Positions 1-25,147 of a stretch of 39,026 bases of DNA are shown piece after piece. A program made the position numbers and the translations under genes. The DNA is from Candidatus Kuenenbacteria bacterium RIFCSPHIGHO2_02_FULL_39_13 (GTDB lineage Bacteria; Patescibacteriota; Patescibacteriia; UBA2196; GWA2-42-15), in the NCBI GenBank assembly GCA_001783595.1, contig MFMW01000005.1:18377-57402 (forward strand), given 5' to 3'. How positions within the stretch are numbered: the stretch's first letter is position 1; every line of letters starts with the position of its first letter. Below the pieces are notes generated by a model. That model was not told the origin of the DNA and did no database searches. It saw only the letters and a list, made by a program, of their open reading frames with translations.

Positions 1-34
1 GCAATAAGCAATAAACAAAGAATAAAAGACAAGG
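1..34. repeat. CAATAAN heptamer repeat tract (left edge)
   Basis: The window opens with two CAATAAG/CAATAAA heptamers followed by CAAAGAATAAAAGA. The same unit recurs at 5665, 6051 and 25095. It lies just beyond the 3' end of the L27 gene, and the array may continue to the left of the window. Confidence 0.7.
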
Positions 35-4038: not shown

Positions 4039-4548
4039 CTATAAATTTAATTTAGCTCGCATGGTAAAGTCAACGTCAGCCCGATGCAGCAGATTGGAAA
4101 TGGGCGATTCAATCTCCGAGAGCATTTGAGAATTTTCCAGATTTGCTTTAAGCTGTAAAAAATCGTCTCTTGTTTTCGCCCAGCCGTTCATGGTCATTGT
4201 CCCTTGTGCTCTATCCAAATTTATGCTTTGAATCGTATTGCCCGCTGGCAGTAAAGCCAGAAAATTATTCAATATACCTGACCACTTAACAAAATCTTTT
4301 TGCACTGCGCTAGCTTCACTCATCAGATTGTTAATCTCTCCAATCCCGCCAGGCTGCGTCATTTGTCCATTATTTTCACTGATCATCTTTAGTTCGTGAG
4401 CTATATATTTTTGACTGGCCAGCATCAAGGCAGAAGCAATTAAAAAAATTGCCGTTAATATCAGGGCATTATTAACCATAGCCACATAGCGCGTCTTTTT
4501 TATGATTTGTTTTTTTATTGCTCGCGGCAAAAGATTGAGTTCAATCAT
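4039..4548 (-). CDS. pilN: Type IV pilus PilN-like inner-membrane protein
   Basis: 169 aa starting MIELNLLPRAIKKQI; the NLLP motif near the N-terminus is what PilN uses to bind the PilM groove. One transmembrane helix (about residues 24-46) is followed by a coiled coil and a PilN-type fold (QSINLDRAQGTMTMNGWAKT). Its ATG overlaps the pilM stop by 4 nt (ATGA), giving translational coupling. Confidence 0.87.
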   Translation of the reverse strand: MIELNLLPRAIKKQIIKKTRYVAMVNNALILTAIFLIASALMLASQKYIAHELKMISENNGQMTQPGGIGEINNLMSEASAVQKDFVKWSGILNNFLALLPAGNTIQSINLDRAQGTMTMNGWAKTRDDFLQLKANLENSQMLSEIESPISNLLHRADVDFTMRAKLNL

Positions 4549-5660
4549 ATCATATTTTTTAAAGCCAGGCCTAGCGCCGTGGTATAAGCATAGAGGTTGC
4601 CAATTTTTCTTGGCAGCTCGCCCGAAATATTTGTGAGCGGGTCAGCAATCAAAATTCTTCTTTTTAATTTTTTTTCCAATATTTCGTCCAGACGATTTAT
4701 ATTTGAGCCGCCGCCGCATAAAATTATTTCTAAATCTTTTGTCTGCCCTGAAAAATGGTCCTGGTAAAAATTTATGGTATTAATGATTTCTTTAACCAAT
4801 TCATCTATGACTTCCATCATTATGTCCCGGATCACTCCTTTACATTTTTTAGCGTCACTGCCGCAAATCAACTTTGCTTTTTCCGCCTTAATGTAAGATA
4901 AATTTTTTCTCTCCATAATGGCCTTGGTAATTTTTTCTCCAGAAATATTGGCAATGCTATTGGCAAACTGTATTATTCCTTTGTCAAGCAGGATAATGCT
5001 TGTTCTGGTCGCGCCCAAGTCTAAAATGATTTTAGCCCCCTCATTTTTGTTATTGTTCGCCAGTTCTTTTGCTTTATGCCATGGTAATTTATTCAGCCAT
5101 CCTTGCTGGCTATTTTCAGTTGCGATAGGCAAAATTGCTCTGGTAATTGCCTGTGCCTCAACTTCAAGCGCCACTACCTCAAGTTGGGCCATATCACACA
5201 GCTTGATATATTCCTCGGCGACAATACGCGGCACGGCCGCCACTAGAAATTTCCTGTATTTATGGTCATTGCCAATTTCCTGCCAGTCAATTTGCACCTC
5301 GCTCATCTCAAGCGGCATATGCCTTGGCAGTTCCTTGCTAATCAAATCTCTGACTTTATCCGTTTGCGTGTCAGCGTGCGCTATGTCAATTACTTTAATA
5401 AAAGTTTTAGTTTCCGGCAAAGAAATCGCCGCATAGCGCGTGGTGAACTTATTAGCTGATTTTTGAATTACTTGCCGAATAAATCCAGCTACTTTTGGTG
5501 CATCTTTAATCACACCCTCCTCAATAATTCCGGGTGGCAGATTGATTGAATTTAATGCTTGAATATAATTTTTCCCCCTTTTTCTTTTAATTTGCGCGGC
5601 TTTTAAGGACAAATCAGAGATATCCAAGCCTAATATTTTATTGGGTGAAGTTAAAGACAT
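4545..5660 (-). CDS. pilM: Type IV pilus assembly protein PilM (actin-like ATPase)
   Basis: Actin/FtsA-fold cytoplasmic protein of the pilus alignment complex. Phosphate-1 (KILGLDISD near the N-terminus), phosphate-2 (IILDLGATRTSIILLDKG) and adenosine motifs (IILCGGGSNINRLDE) are visible. The start chosen is the ATG at 5660 (MSLTSPNKILGLD). An in-frame ATG at 5681 would add MIIAYCF, but those residues are encoded by the CAATAAN repeat read in reverse, so that extension is an artefact. The product is 371 aa. It is separated from the upstream PilX-like gene by the inserted four-helix-bundle gene. Confidence 0.9.
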   Translation of the reverse strand: MSLTSPNKILGLDISDLSLKAAQIKRKRGKNYIQALNSINLPPGIIEEGVIKDAPKVAGFIRQVIQKSANKFTTRYAAISLPETKTFIKVIDIAHADTQTDKVRDLISKELPRHMPLEMSEVQIDWQEIGNDHKYRKFLVAAVPRIVAEEYIKLCDMAQLEVVALEVEAQAITRAILPIATENSQQGWLNKLPWHKAKELANNNKNEGAKIILDLGATRTSIILLDKGIIQFANSIANISGEKITKAIMERKNLSYIKAEKAKLICGSDAKKCKGVIRDIMMEVIDELVKEIINTINFYQDHFSGQTKDLEIILCGGGSNINRLDEILEKKLKRRILIADPLTNISGELPRKIGNLYAYTTALGLALKNMI

Positions 5661-5697
5661 GAAACAATAAGCAATAATCAATAAGCAATAAGCAAAG
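5661..5697. repeat. CAATAAN heptamer array, left flank of the four-helix-bundle gene
   Basis: GAAA followed by CAATAAG, CAATAAT, CAATAAG, CAATAAG and a partial CAAAG (5665-5697). It lies exactly between the pilM start codon and the stop codon of the four-helix-bundle gene. An inverted copy bounds the other side of that gene at 6051-6093. Confidence 0.85.
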
Positions 5698-6051
5698 TTA
5701 TAACTTTCTATTTTTTATTTTTGTCATGGACACCCAAAGCATTGCTGAAATCTCATCAATAAGATTAGTTAATCTAAGATATTCATCTTCTGAAAAATAT
5801 TTTAATTCTTTTGCCAGATAAATAATATATTTACATTCTCTCGCAGAACCATAAGATATTTCCCAAAAATTTAATTTTACATTTTCTTTTATTCTCGCAT
5901 AGCCTTCAAGAAAATTTAGCATTACTGACACCGCCGCTCTTCTTAGTTGGGATGTTAAAGCATATAGCTCGTTTTTCGGAAATTGGTTACTATATTGATA
6001 AGTTAATTTTATAAATTCATGAATTTTTACTTTAAGAATATTATTTTCCAT
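5698..6051 (-). CDS. Four-helix-bundle protein (23S rRNA intervening-sequence type)
   Basis: 117 aa matching the S23/IVS four-helix-bundle family: an N-terminal VKIHEFIKLTYQYSNQFPKNELYALTSQ helix pair, RRAAVSVMLNFLEGYARI (the conserved ..A..V..NIAEG.. region), FWEISYGSARECKYIIYLA and a last helix with LTNLIDEISAMLW. Relatives are encoded in 23S rRNA intervening sequences and as free-standing genes; the accessory protein Avd of diversity-generating retroelements has a similar fold. No reverse transcriptase is present here. The gene interrupts a pilus operon and is tightly bracketed by inverted CAATAAN arrays, so it looks like a passenger of a small insertion unit. Confidence 0.88.
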   Translation of the reverse strand: MENNILKVKIHEFIKLTYQYSNQFPKNELYALTSQLRRAAVSVMLNFLEGYARIKENVKLNFWEISYGSARECKYIIYLAKELKYFSEDEYLRLTNLIDEISAMLWVSMTKIKNRKL

Positions 6052-6093
6052 TCTTTGTTTATTGCTTATTATTCTTTGTTTATTGTTTCTCCG
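6051..6093. repeat. CAATAAN heptamer array, right flank (inverted)
   Basis: On the minus strand this reads GAAACAATAAACAAAG, AATAATAAG, CAATAAACAAAGAA. It is the inverted counterpart of 5661-5697, sharing the outer GAAACAATAA. The TAA stop of the PilX-like gene (6080-6082) lies inside the array. Confidence 0.8.
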
Positions 6094-7537
6094 TGGTTTC
6101 TTGCCACTGTAAAATCTGGTATTCTCCGGTTGTTGGAAAGCCAGGCGGCGGGTTATAGGTCAAATTTGAATCATAAATCGTTTCTGTGTTTCGGTAACCA
6201 GAGACAGTCTGGCCCCAGCCATTAACCCATGACCAAGTCCAAATCGTATTGGTAATAATTACTCCATACAAGCTGATTTTATTTCTCAAAACATAGTTTC
6301 TGGCATCTGCCGGCACTTGATATGAGCCGCTGGTTGTATAATATTTGCGAAAGACATGTCCTTTTTGCGCCATTAACACCGCGTTTATTTCTAGCTCATC
6401 AGGCGCCGAGTAAAGCGGCACATAAATATTGGACTGCGAAATCAGTCCCAAACTGCTCGTGCCATCCTTGGCCGCATAAACTAAATTCCCGTTAATCACA
6501 ATTTTTGGGTTGCTGCCCGAGTCTGGTAGTTTAGCAGCCACGACCGTTGTCTGTCCGTTGACCGTGCCATCAACCCAAAGATCATCTTCTACAAAAATTA
6601 TACCACAATTTCCCGGGATATTATAATTCCCGGTGTAAGATTCCCGGTCAATGTCATCAGATTCGCGCAGCCATTTAGAACTGTCCCAACCCCAGACAGG
6701 ATTTTTAAGCTTTGACACCCGATACATATCAAAAGTGCCGTCACTTTTAAAATTCAGATGATAGCCCAAGCCGCGCTGTTGAAAATAGCAATCTTCAGTT
6801 GTGGAGCACATTGAATTTTGGGCCAATGTTTTAAGCGTGGCCAAATCAGTTGTCACTTCGTCAAAGTCAATGTTAGACAGGGGAAAATCCCATAATGATT
6901 GTTCCTCGCCAGTTCCCCATACTCCCGGTTTTGTCTGGTAAGAACAGCCGTGTTCCGGCCCGCAAATATATGTTTCTTTAGCTGATGTTGTTTTGCCGTC
7001 ATTATAGCCGTCCATTCTAATGCCGCCGTTAGAATGCAGCGGCCCATGCAATGTTTCCGTGTCGCCAAACCAGACATTGGAATTAGTCAAAAAGGCGAAT
7101 TGCGCCATTGATGGCCGGCCGTATTTTACTTTAACGGTTCTATCCACACCCGGGTCATTATTCATCCAGCCTGTTGACTCAATTATGACTGTGTTGGAGC
7201 ATTCTGAAGGGGGAGTAATGGCTAAAGAGAATTTGCCAATCGTGTTGCCTAAATTATCTTGGTAATCGTGCACGTAAGGTCCGGGCAATCCTGTGCCGTC
7301 CTGAAAATCGTCAGGCGCGTGCGCCAAATGCCAGCGGTAATAATTAACTCCGGCCTCTGCCGTTGCTAAAGCCTTTGCCCAATTTATTTTTTTCAAGCCC
7401 AATTTATGCTGGCTAGCAATCATGCCTGACAGTCCTACTGCTATTACGGTGAACAGCATTGTAAAAACCAGCGCCATAATCAGCATCGCGCCCCTTTTAT
7501 TTTCAAGAATATTAATCCTGTTGCTTATTAATCGCAT
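6080..7537 (-). CDS. PilX-like type IV pilus accessory protein with pilin-type N-terminus
   Basis: 485-aa exported protein. KRGAMLIMALVFTMLFTVIAVGL (about residues 14-36) resembles the N-terminus of PilX/minor-pilin assembly proteins: a basic stretch, Gly, then a hydrophobic helix. It is followed by WAKALATAEAGVNYYRWHLA, the helix typical of PilX N-terminal domains. The remainder is a beta-rich extracellular region with several Cys (CGPEHGC, CSTTEDC) and Trp/Tyr-rich C-terminal strands, probably an adhesin-like domain. It is the first gene of the pil operon, transcribed from an extended -10 promoter at 7554-7562, and its stop codon is supplied by the repeat array. The exact family of the C-terminal domain is not recognised. 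Confidence 0.75.
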   Translation of the reverse strand: MRLISNRINILENKRGAMLIMALVFTMLFTVIAVGLSGMIASQHKLGLKKINWAKALATAEAGVNYYRWHLAHAPDDFQDGTGLPGPYVHDYQDNLGNTIGKFSLAITPPSECSNTVIIESTGWMNNDPGVDRTVKVKYGRPSMAQFAFLTNSNVWFGDTETLHGPLHSNGGIRMDGYNDGKTTSAKETYICGPEHGCSYQTKPGVWGTGEEQSLWDFPLSNIDFDEVTTDLATLKTLAQNSMCSTTEDCYFQQRGLGYHLNFKSDGTFDMYRVSKLKNPVWGWDSSKWLRESDDIDRESYTGNYNIPGNCGIIFVEDDLWVDGTVNGQTTVVAAKLPDSGSNPKIVINGNLVYAAKDGTSSLGLISQSNIYVPLYSAPDELEINAVLMAQKGHVFRKYYTTSGSYQVPADARNYVLRNKISLYGVIITNTIWTWSWVNGWGQTVSGYRNTETIYDSNLTYNPPPGFPTTGEYQILQWQETTEKQ

Positions 7538-11044: not shown

Positions 11045-11602
11045 ATGTTAAGCAAATCTAAAACCACACGCAAGCTATTAGCTTTCTACTTCACTAACCC
11101 TCAAGCCAAAAAATATGTTAGACAGTTGGCCAGAGTTTTGGGTTTGGATGCCGGGAATCTTTCTAAAGAATTAAAAAAATTTGAAACACAAGGTCTTTTT
11201 TTATCTACTAGAAACGGTGACCAGAAAATTTTTTATCTCAATAAAAATTATCACTTATTTGAAGAATATAAAAATATAATTTTAAAAACTGAAGGTATTG
11301 AAGCTAGCTTAAAAAAATTACTATCTCAATTCAAGAAAATTGAGCAAGCATATATTTTTGGTTCTTTCGCTGATAATAGTCAAAGAACTGATTCAGATAT
11401 TGATTTACTGGTTATTGGCCAAGTTGATTTTGGCAAATTAAATAGGGGAATTAATCAGTTAGAAAAAAAACTCCAGCGCGAAATAAATCAGGTAGTCTAT
11501 AGTTCACAAGAATTTCAAGCACAAAAAAGAAAATCACCGTTTTTAAAAAATATTTTAAGAAATAAAAAGGTAATTTTAATTGGCCAAGATGAAACAAAAT
11601 AA
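11045..11602 (+). CDS. Winged-helix / minimal nucleotidyltransferase (MNT) antitoxin
   Basis: 185 aa. Residues about 1-80 form a winged-helix DNA-binding domain (LARVLGLDAGNLSKELKKFETQGLF). About 95-185 are a minimal nucleotidyltransferase with intact GSFADNSQRTDSDIDLLVIG, holding the GSF and DxD metal-binding motifs. In type VII toxin-antitoxin systems MNT enzymes neutralise HEPN toxins by adding AMP. The next gene, overlapping by 14 bp, is a HEPN protein. The DNA-binding domain and the two palindromes in the promoter point to autoregulation. Confidence 0.87.
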   Translation: MLSKSKTTRKLLAFYFTNPQAKKYVRQLARVLGLDAGNLSKELKKFETQGLFLSTRNGDQKIFYLNKNYHLFEEYKNIILKTEGIEASLKKLLSQFKKIEQAYIFGSFADNSQRTDSDIDLLVIGQVDFGKLNRGINQLEKKLQREINQVVYSSQEFQAQKRKSPFLKNILRNKKVILIGQDETK

Positions 11603-12062
11603 TTTGGACAAAAAAATCAAAGAATTAAAAAGTAAAAATTTAGCTAAAAATTTTCAGGTTAGTTTTTCTGATATCATAAAATATTTAAATAGGGCGAAAA
11701 AAGAGTTAATCATCGCTCATAAAAATATTAAAATTGATAAAAATACATCTTGCGTCTTGATTTATCAGTCAATGCTTAAAGTTGGTCGCTGTCTAATGTT
11801 TTCTTATCATTTGCGGCCGATTGATGGGAGCCAGCATAAAACGACCATTGAATTTTGTGAAGTAATCATCGGAGAAAAATTTAGACAACTAATTGAAAGT
11901 TTTGACGAGCTAAGAAAAAAAAGAAATAAATTTGTTTATGATGTTACCGAAGTTGAAATTTCTGATTCTGAATTGAATTATTATTTTAAAGAAGCTCAAA
12001 AGCTGATTGAATTAGTTGATAAAATTATTAAGCATAAAAATCCTCAAAAAGAACTATTATAA
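11589..12062 (+). CDS. HEPN-domain protein (putative toxin of the MNT/HEPN pair)
   Basis: 157 aa from the ATG at 11589 (MKQNNLDKK); a TTG 9 nt upstream is the alternative. All-helical HEPN layout: a long helix with YLNRAKKELIIAHKN, a middle helix LIYQSMLKVGRCLMFSYHLRP, then ELRKKRNKFVYDVTEV, which matches the HEPN Rx4-6H region. Where many active HEPN RNases have His, this has Tyr-Asp (RNKFVYD), so catalysis may differ or be lost. Followed 12 bp later by pgk. Confidence 0.8.
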   Translation: MKQNNLDKKIKELKSKNLAKNFQVSFSDIIKYLNRAKKELIIAHKNIKIDKNTSCVLIYQSMLKVGRCLMFSYHLRPIDGSQHKTTIEFCEVIIGEKFRQLIESFDELRKKRNKFVYDVTEVEISDSELNYYFKEAQKLIELVDKIIKHKNPQKELL

Positions 12063-13169: not shown

Positions 13170-13499
13170 GACTTTCGCGTTTGTCATTCCCTTGCTTGAC
13201 AAGGGAATCCAGTTTTTAAATAATAGTGCTGTTAGCTTATCCTCTGGATCCTCGGATCAAGTCCGAGGATGACGGAAGAAGAGCCCGAATATTTATTTGT
13301 CATTGCCCGACCCTCGATCGCAGCCGAGGGCAGGCTTGATCGGGCAATCCAGACAAAAAAACAAACAAAAAAGAATTATGGTAGTTAGATTAACAGAATG
13401 GATCCTCGGATCAAGTCCGAGGATGACAGAAGAGAGAGTCCGAGGATGACAGAAGAGAGTCTGTGGATAACAGAAGGAGGGCAAACGCGAAAGTCCTAA
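13166..13499. repeat. Composite REP-like element with 18-bp terminal inverted repeats between pgk and eno
   Basis: This 355-bp gene-free stretch is bounded by TTAGGACTTTCGCGTTTG (13166-13183) and its exact complement (13482-13499). Inside are several hairpin units: ATTCCCTT/AAGGGAAT (about 13185-13210), two CCTCGGA-tcaag-TCCGAGG copies (about 13250 and 13404) and a partial third, and a nested ATTGCCCGA/TCGGGCAAT hairpin containing CCCTCG/CGAGGG (about 13302-13350). Arm sequences differ but pairing is kept. No protein gene is supported here. Confidence 0.8.
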
Positions 13500-16190: not shown

Positions 16191-16306
16191 CCCTTCCCCA
16201 ACCCTCCCATTGGTAAGGGGAGGGAGCGGATTTAATATTAATCTGTGAAAAACCAGGTTCCCCCTCCTTACAAAGGAGGGGGACAAGGGGGTGGTCATTA
16301 AATTCT
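16191..16306. repeat. G/C-run hairpin repeats upstream of the DUF559 gene
   Basis: Two hairpins: CCCTCCC/GGGAGGG (16202-16224) and a perfect 10-bp CCCCCTCCTT-aca-AAGGAGGGGG (16260-16282), followed by ACAAGGGGGTGG. G-run palindromes of this kind often accompany stand-alone DUF559 genes. The GC skew stands out sharply from the AT-rich surroundings. Confidence 0.75.
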
Positions 16307-16663
16307 ATGACCGTAATTTTCAACCAACACAAGTATAAACAAACACGACAGCTTTTAAGAAATAACAGTACTAAGGCTGAAAGAATTTTGTGGAATCATT
16401 TAAATGGCAATCAAATTGGAATAAAATTTCGTCGTCAATATAGCATTGGTGATTATATCGCAGATTTTTGCGCACCAAGAAAAAAGTTGATTATTGAACT
16501 TGACGGTGGAATTCATTTGGTCAAAAATCAAAGATTATATGACAAAGCAAGACAGCTGGATATTGAGCATTTGGGATTTAGGGTGATTAGATTTGCCAAT
16601 AAAGAAATAGCCCACAATCTTGATAAAGTGCTTGATAAAATTAAAAAAGAAATAAAAATATGA
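16307..16663 (+). CDS. DUF559 (Vsr-like) endonuclease-domain protein
   Basis: 118 aa with the DUF559 signature: QTRQLLRNNSTKAERILWNHL, IKFRRQYSIGDYIADFCAPRKKLIIELDGGIHL (PD-(D/E)XK-like core D..E.D) and a C-terminal GFRVIRFANKEIAHN. The fold is related to very-short-patch-repair nucleases. Solitary copies with flanking hairpins behave like mobile passengers, but the biochemical role is not established. It splits the glycolytic run between the PEP-domain gene and gpmI. Confidence 0.88.
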   Translation: MTVIFNQHKYKQTRQLLRNNSTKAERILWNHLNGNQIGIKFRRQYSIGDYIADFCAPRKKLIIELDGGIHLVKNQRLYDKARQLDIEHLGFRVIRFANKEIAHNLDKVLDKIKKEIKI

Positions 16664-24497: not shown

Positions 24498-25100
24498 ATG
24501 TTAGAGGATTTATTTGGTTCAAAAACTCGCGCCAAACTTTTAACTCTGTTTTTCAATAACATTGACTCTGCCTTTTATGTGCGCGGCATTGCCAGAGACT
24601 TGAAAGAAAACATTAATTCCATTAGAAGAGAAGTTTTAAATCTGGAAAAACTGGGAATTATAAAGAGTGTGCCGCTTGATAAAATTGATGTTCCAAAAGA
24701 AGAGCTGGCGCGAGACAAGCAGGAAAACAGGAAATATTATCAGGTCAACAAAGAATACACCATGTTCAATGAGCTCCATAGCTTGATCATCCGCTCTAAA
24801 CTTCTAGTTGACAAAGCTATGCTTGAAAAACTTAAGGAGATGAACGGCATCAAGTTATTGGTTTTAAGCGGCATTTTTGTTTCCGATGTCAGGGCGCGCA
24901 CAGACATTCTCATTATGGGCAATGTTGATAAAAACAAAATCAGAAGATTAATTTCTGGTATGGAAAAAAATTTCAGCAATCCCATTCGCTATTCCGTGAT
25001 GACTCAAAAAGAATTTGACTATCGCAACCAGATGACCGACAAATTTTTATTTGAGATTATGGAAGGCAAAAAGCATGTGGTGGTGGATAGAAGACAATAA
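24498..25100 (+). CDS. Winged-helix protein with a degenerate nucleotidyltransferase domain
   Basis: 200 aa. N-terminal winged helix (LFGSKTRAKLLTLFFNN, VRGIARDLKENINSIRREVLNLEKLGIIKS), then a domain aligned with the MNT protein at 11045 (LLVLSGIFVSDVRARTDILIMGNVDKNKIRRLISGMEK). The GSx..DxD active site is lost: GSF is replaced by SGIF and only one Asp remains. It has no HEPN partner; the next gene is rluB-like. Probably a transcription regulator that kept the fold without the activity. Its TAA stop is supplied by the first CAATAAN heptamer. Confidence 0.78.
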   Translation: MLEDLFGSKTRAKLLTLFFNNIDSAFYVRGIARDLKENINSIRREVLNLEKLGIIKSVPLDKIDVPKEELARDKQENRKYYQVNKEYTMFNELHSLIIRSKLLVDKAMLEKLKEMNGIKLLVLSGIFVSDVRARTDILIMGNVDKNKIRRLISGMEKNFSNPIRYSVMTQKEFDYRNQMTDKFLFEIMEGKKHVVVDRRQ

Positions 25101-25147
25101 ACAATAAACAATAATCAATAATCAATAAGCAATAAGCAATAAGCAAG
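25095..25147. repeat. CAATAAN heptamer array (seven units)
   Basis: Seven exact-period units: CAATAAA x2, CAATAAT x2, CAATAAG x3 (25095-25143), then CAAG. The variable seventh base changes in blocks A,A,T,T,G,G,G. The upstream gene's stop codon lies in unit 1. Confidence 0.9.

Follow-up and report, generated by a model that had tools for sequence, protein, structure and literature searches.

A probable IVS-type insertion cassette with inverted heptamer arrays as its ends in a bacterial pilus operon

The S23/IVP protein is known mainly as the ORF of unknown function in the intervening sequences (IVSs) of rRNA genes. Heptanucleotide arrays have been reported repeatedly from bacterial genomes, and their cause has not been given. 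The best comparison for the locus described here is the IVS in the 23S rRNA gene of Coxiella burnetii, which RNase III cuts and which is 428-444 nt long, with a terminal stem and with tandem heptamers (GACAGAT) preceding its S23p ORF (PMC4990558). A quotation in that paper gives the idea of Ralph and McClelland that an IVS is a former mobile element with a mobility ORF, and a citation there has Xcc0516, of the S23 family, as a homopentamer. In CPR bacteria, IVP-encoding insertions occur in both 16S and 23S rRNA genes (PMC11270868). As far as the available text of two papers on heptamer arrays goes, TAACTGA arrays occur in Beggiatoaceae, Cyanobacteria and Bacteroidetes with no mechanism evident (PMC4679880), and GGGAATC arrays in Xanthomonas and GGGGAYT arrays in Nostoc show no general link to known mobile elements, with 70-75 inverted heptamer-array pairs in Xanthomonas (PMC4692102). 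Among open-licence papers we found none that links IVP/S23 genes with inverted heptamer arrays outside rRNA, or that links the two genome-wide. Here we describe a 429-bp unit in a pilus operon that is probably a selfish cassette of the IVS (S23/IVP) type inserted there, in which an IVP gene lies between inverted 7-nt arrays serving as its ends.

The cassette in the pilus operon

The window, by which we mean the whole stretch of 39,026 nucleotides analyzed, contains the features collected in Table 1. In a profile search the gene at the center of the cassette matches both PF05635 (E=7.8e-29, 100.5 bits against a cut-off of 33.8) and TIGR02436 (E=5.8e-28, 97.3 bits against a cut-off of 24). The AlphaFold (AF2) monomer model of its protein has four helices (pLDDT 97.2), and the best PDB folds for this model are the S23-family structures 2GSC (TM 0.85-0.91) and 2RLD; the next-nearest solved fold after the S23 proteins is Avd of diversity-generating retroelements.

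Table 1. Positions of the cassette, its parts, its operon neighbors and further CAATAAN arrays in the window
Feature	Position	Strand	Remark
IVP / S23 four-helix-bundle gene, 117 aa	5698..6051	-	sole ORF of the cassette
Heptamer array at the 3' end, NTTATTG when read along the gene	5661..5697	-	outer edge adjoins the pilM start codon
Heptamer array at the 5' end, CAATAAN when read along the gene	6053..6089	-	includes the Gln-stop (CAATAA) with which the PilX-like gene upstream closes; stops 1 bp short of the IVP ATG
Whole cassette, 429 bp with both arms	5661..6089	-	predicted fold is a single closing stem that has the ORF in its loop
pilM, downstream operon neighbor	4545..5660	-	
PilX-like minor pilin gene, upstream neighbor	6080..7537	-	in relatives pilM comes straight after
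Stand-alone CAATAAN array, 7.6 units	25094..25146	+	begins at a Gln-stop codon; no IVP gene
Edge of a further CAATAAN array	1..25	+	left edge of the window

The two arms are 37 nt each, with 355 nt between them, and are 84% complementary, forming a stem around the ORF as in an IVS; the predicted RNA fold of the cassette closes via these arms (z = -2.33). The preliminary description had placed the gene between CAATAAN arrays of opposite orientation with a common outer sequence, and both points hold: the outer ends form a perfect 10-bp inverted pair (GAAACAATAA / TTATTGTTTC). It had also stated that one array touches the start of pilM and the other provides the stop of the PilX-like gene, which agrees with the coordinates, since the pilM ATG (5658-5660, minus strand) stands directly against its arm and the other arm has, as its first TAA, the stop codon of the PilX-like gene (6080-6082). 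The cassette, described there as a precise unit of about 430 bp without a transposase, fits exactly between this stop and this start, and codes for nothing besides IVP. It lies on the same strand as both pilus-operon neighbors, with tight spacing.

The repeat is abundant well beyond the arms: with up to one mismatch allowed, the window contains 14 occurrences of CAATAANCAATAA, against 1.0 expected, a count reached by 0 of 100 shuffles. The CAATAAN heptamer is also arrayed without a gene, at the two further places in Table 1 and elsewhere in the genome. As a terminal word it is particular to the pilus-operon element; other elements use other heptamers.

Several features of the window lie apart from the cassette. 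A DUF559 gene at 16307-16663 (PF04480, 1e-31) is preceded at 16210-16310 by repeats of the CCCTCCTTACAAAGGAGGGGGACAAGGGGG type, a different repeat-associated cassette; we rejected it as a second heptamer-bracketed cassette because its repeats are different and do not have period 7. At 11045-12062, a nucleotidyltransferase gene (Polbeta, PF18765) is followed by a gene for a 160-aa protein without a Pfam match, and the pair looks like a toxin-antitoxin system of the MNT/HEPN type. The adjoining DUF2283 and DUF4258 genes at 340-815 are possibly a toxin-antitoxin-like pair as well. Downstream of a pgk-like gene, at 13414-13476, there is a tandem repeat of period 21-23 (AGTCCGAGGATGACAGAAGAGAG) that is unrelated to the heptamers.

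Insertion sites, matched arms and movement

It had been proposed to look for an empty site in related genomes, with the contrary case in mind that relatives might conserve the gene in their pilus operon without the arrays. The comparison gave empty sites and no instance of the contrary case. In four of four genomes of the same family, which belong to other genera and whose pilM is 48-51% identical to that of the source genome, the IVP gene is absent from the junction and pilM directly follows the PilX-like gene. The gap amounts to a few bases or none in two of them (L027, L028), reads AAACAATAATCAATCAACAG in the third (L029) and consists of unrelated filler in the fourth (L026). No IVP gene was found near pilM at 29 further pilM loci of the class. 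Because the relatives' junctions lack the gene, the cassette is, judged by sequence comparison, an insertion in the lineage of the source genome. No direct target-site duplication was seen by eye here or at the accB-accC junction discussed below, the compared empty sites being strongly diverged.

The source genome (G000) carries four clear IVP genes, each bracketed by inverted arrays in a heptamer of its own (CAATAAN, TAGTTGG, ACTAACG/AGTCGTC and GAAAATT). The fifth match is weak: L005, an Avd-like gene adjoining a reverse transcriptase (RT) gene, has no arrays. This region, on contig C16 at about 38.6-41.9 kb, comprises the Avd-like gene, an RVT_1 gene (C16:40630-41259) and, upstream, a likely variable-repeat target; it is a probable diversity-generating retroelement.

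IVP genes are present in 145 of 287 Patescibacteria genomes, in up to 11 copies. Of some 180 IVP loci that we examined, in Patescibacteria and in further bacterial phyla, most have inverted arrays of period 7 (sometimes 8) on both sides, the word differing by locus. At 90 patescibacterial loci, the period-7 score is 9.5 in the 5' array and 11.0 in the 3' array; other periods score 3.4-5.9, and flanks at a distance of 400 bp score 4.0-5.3. The arms also match each other. Compared with the reverse complement of its own 3' array, the 5' array scores a median of 14, against 7 for the 3' arrays of other loci; a match of at least 12 is reached by 67% of these loci, against 2.4% when loci are mismatched, and by 71.6% against 0.9% at 88 loci of many other phyla, viral contigs included. 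With both arms summed, the best period is 7 in 62/97 plus 47/88 loci and 8 in 10 plus 17, and periodicity is weak in 19 plus 23; shuffled controls give essentially none. Thus the anatomy is widespread, cyanobacterial plasmid copies included, and periodic arrays are weak or missing at about 20-25% of IVP loci.

The dimensions and placement of these elements are also alike. Patescibacterial elements have a median length of 440 bp from arm to arm, against 473 bp for those of other groups. The matched repeats in the arms typically cover about 25 nt, and in 71-73% of cases the upstream stop codon and the start of the 5' arm are no more than 15 bp apart. With neighboring genes called by simple ORF calling, 70 of 95 patescibacterial copies are co-directional with both neighbors. 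A protein operon as target is the rule, not the exception, for IVP cassettes. The earlier idea of an IVS-type insertion in a protein operon is therefore supported by the empty sites, but was too narrow in treating such a target as special.

Evidence of movement comes from two copies in one genome (L064 and L088 in G077) that lie 2.7 kb apart and encode proteins 92% identical. Their nucleotide identity starts in the 5' array and stops in the 3' array, and their flanks are unrelated, which indicates, as far as sequences can tell, that the array-bounded unit is mobile and moved as a block. A host recombination route could have produced this recent duplication. The differences between the copies are mostly synonymous (dN/dS 0.11), so the IVP protein appears to be under selection. 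At L064 (1820-1900; G077:C1, about 116.4 kb) the 3' end of the cassette apparently gives the downstream prepilin gene its start codon and leader (MGSKNKNLPTTNYKLPTQQGFSLVE...), and the insertion may therefore have rebuilt the N-terminus of a protein.

The same junctions are occupied in different species by distantly related IVPs with different words. One junction holds IVPs only 41% identical (L115 and L123), another is occupied both at L140 and in G226, with no IVP there in G263, and a third, which lies upstream of recR, is likewise occupied by distantly related IVPs. The accB-accC junction of the gammaproteobacterial order Xanthomonadales is empty in most genomes examined and contains a full element in several, with GGGATTC/GGGAATC arms around an IVP gene; two loci (L423, L440) have gene-less inverted array pairs of other words there. 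The sampled genomes do not include the exact locus of Xcc0516, in whose place relatives of 60-71% identity were taken. The source genome also has gene-less inverted pairs (C14:15.2 kb and C32:17.7 kb). On plasmid pANA02 of Anabaena sp. 90 (L303, 42792-46127), an IVP gene with ACAGGTG arrays lies between cas6 and cas4-cas1d. A domain named 23S_rRNA_IVP is listed with CRISPR adaptation modules in PMC10910872, and insertions of this kind may explain that listing. IVP genes found in operons, such as this one, are probably insertions and not parts of the system, which is a warning for annotation.

Stand-alone arrays, repeat words and the mechanism of transfer

In its 643 kb the source genome has 37 arrays of period 7 and 10 of period 8, compared with 0-3 for each of periods 4-6 and 9-12. 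Several lie inside ORFs, in the stop-free orientation. The period-8 arrays, several of them of the AACAATGG / GAAACAAT type at L152 (G000:C9, 3179-5624) and on other contigs, are an 8-mer sister class of the heptamer arrays. In random 20-kb samples, in which some of the counted arrays are arms of IVP cassettes, array density rises from 0 through 0.7 and 8.0 to 18.4 per 100 kb in genomes with 0, 1, 2-5 and at least 6 IVP copies. Array density correlates with copy number (Spearman 0.705, p 1e-8, with genomes taken as independent). No heptamer array was found in 357 kb sampled from 19 IVP-free genomes; among family-matched genomes the densities are 0 for the IVP-free and 10.0 per 100 kb for the others; and G083, with six IVP genes, has 23 arrays in 60 kb, compared with 0 in 40 kb of its IVP-free congener G189. 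The IVP-free genomes thus rule out that heptamer arrays are a general trait of small AT-rich genomes.

The stand-alone arrays also have words in common with the resident elements. At a score of 14, such matches are found for 22 of 44 arrays in G000 (controls 2-4 of 44) and for 15 of 23 in G083 (controls 0-5 of 23). The controls were reversed or unit-permuted arms of the same composition and period, which excludes composition as the cause. Arrays and IVP are clearly associated, but which of them makes the other does not follow from the association alone. The arrays could themselves be the mobile or self-expanding entity, growing by slippage, microhomology or template switching, with the IVP gene a passenger between inverted arrays. 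They might spread alone, since there are many more arrays than IVP genes (in G000 about nine for each gene when arms are included) and ORFs often contain them; they are found singly and as gene-less inverted pairs, and their first units often fall on a host stop codon. We consider this unlikely in view of the array-free sequence of the 19 IVP-free genomes and of G189, the trend with copy number, the resident words of lone arrays, and the strong purifying selection on IVP after duplication. Moreover, long-spaced inverted pairs in G000 enclose IVP genes, with one exception around the end of another gene. Widespread IVP cassettes appear instead to be the source of the scattered heptamer repeats in many bacterial genomes.

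Where does the word of an element come from? Related elements have a common word, unrelated elements have different words, and the two arms of one element match. With falling protein identity, the similarity of arms between elements declines from 32 (identity at least 0.85, one pair) through 14.8, 10.2 and 8.2 to 7.4, while the match within an element stays at 13.5-14.7 in all classes, the one closest pair (20) excepted. The word is thus inherited with the element and drifts, with both arms in step. Since words diverge while an element's own arms stay matched, a fixed recognition sequence fails as an explanation and period plus complementarity succeed; the recognized feature is probably the 7-nt period together with arm-to-arm pairing. 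That the heptamer is instead made anew from each target at insertion seems quite improbable to us, given that words follow protein relatedness, that a single word is repeated at many sites of one genome, and that L064 and L088 bring one word to unrelated sites, which rejects templating by the target as sole origin. The observations that suggested it concern the pilus operon, where the outer GAAACAATAA of the arm overlaps Glu-Lys-Gln-stop codons partly conserved in relatives, and where the empty junction of L029 holds CAATAATCAATCAA. In a mixed model, elements may favor targets that resemble their own word.

How could such a unit settle in operons without harm? In the reading that we prefer, the cassette moves as a block, mostly to gene junctions within operons; there its arrays can provide the neighbor's stop codon and adjoin the next start, so that no protein is broken. 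Such junctions would be tolerated because the arms would pair into a long stem in the transcript; by analogy with 23S IVSs, which RNase III excises without ligation, the operon mRNA is probably cut there, which would keep the insertion nearly harmless. The conserved IVP protein most likely binds the repeats and would be the factor by which the cassette itself moves or makes arrays. Given that the solved relative is a pentamer and that the matched arms cover about 25 nt, each repeat might, by analogy, bind one subunit, which would be a natural arrangement. Stand-alone arrays and gene-less hairpins would be by-products or non-autonomous derivatives.

To our knowledge IVP has no known catalytic motif, and an enzyme working in trans might conceivably move the cassette: a resident RT, given the common fold of IVP and Avd, or a Y1/REP transposase with the hairpin as its substrate. 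G000 has one RT gene and one Y1 gene, and IVP-positive genomes are somewhat richer in both (odds ratios 2.4 for RT and 3.0 for Y1). However, nine genomes with 5-11 IVP copies, G077 included, have neither RVT_1 RT nor Y1, by which we rejected either as a necessary partner, and the IVP-free, array-free G189 has two Y1 genes; we regard movement in trans by these enzymes as very unlikely. Because neither is required, IVP together with host enzymes is left as the most likely machinery of DNA transfer, another unrecognized enzyme being also possible. Its strand and tight spacing might suggest that IVP is a normal accessory member of the pilus operon, conserved there and flanked by spacers that contain simple-sequence repeats; this is hardly credible when the gene is missing from the operon in all relatives examined and the inverted arrays match far above chance.

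If cassette and protein make the arrays, then many operon insertions, spacer repeats and 23S IVSs have one origin, and DNA movement without a known recombinase becomes testable. In its widest form, which we put forward tentatively as a possibility, these cassettes would be a pan-bacterial mobile element without a known recombinase, whose pentameric protein of the Avd fold, guided by period and by the pairing of arms, recognizes or writes 7-nt repeats that are free in sequence, and which generates most bacterial heptanucleotide arrays and is the source of the 23S IVSs.

Comparison with known systems

The cassette differs from the familiar short mobile units. MITEs and REP/RAYT hairpins are likewise short, lie at gene junctions as inverted-repeat units and have gene-less derivatives, but the cassette has no fixed terminal sequence, its termini are tandem heptamers, and it requires no Y1 in the genome. 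Its terminal words vary between elements and it has no transposase gene, unlike an insertion sequence or MITE, and 13 genomes with at least five IVP copies are without Y1, unlike what is expected of REP/RAYT. Avd (4DWL, 8UB7) has a similar fold (TM about 0.8) but is only 7-11% identical, and the score with the Avd model is 29.1 against a cut-off of 80 bits. Neither an RT nor a template or variable repeat was found beside the cassette, whose neighbors are pilus genes; the genome's RT is on contig C16.

The arrays themselves resemble published STRR-like heptanucleotide arrays, since period 7 stands far above other periods in the source genome. Within the available text of PMC4679880 and PMC4692102, those arrays are tandem 7-mers as well, mostly intergenic and near start or stop codons, with in-ORF copies on the stop-free strand. 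The same text does not tie them to IVP, whereas here GGGAATC/GGGATTC arrays bracket IVP genes at accB-accC.

The IVP-encoding insertions of CPR bacteria have the same domain in the same phylum, but they lie in rRNA genes and ours in mRNA operons with array ends, of which a text search of PMC11270868 found no mention. The Coxiella 23S IVS belongs to the same protein family, has nearly the same size (429 bp here) and likewise has complementary termini stemmed around an ORF. Its site, however, is helix 45 of the rRNA, and decay of its ORF is reported (PMC4990558), whereas the pilus cassette lies in a protein operon, has heptamer arrays as both arms, and belongs to a family that is multi-copy and mobile across phyla. 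Because it lies outside any rRNA gene, between the PilX-like gene and pilM, we do not file it as a 23S IVS; in our best reading, the cassette is a general form of the 23S rRNA intervening sequence.
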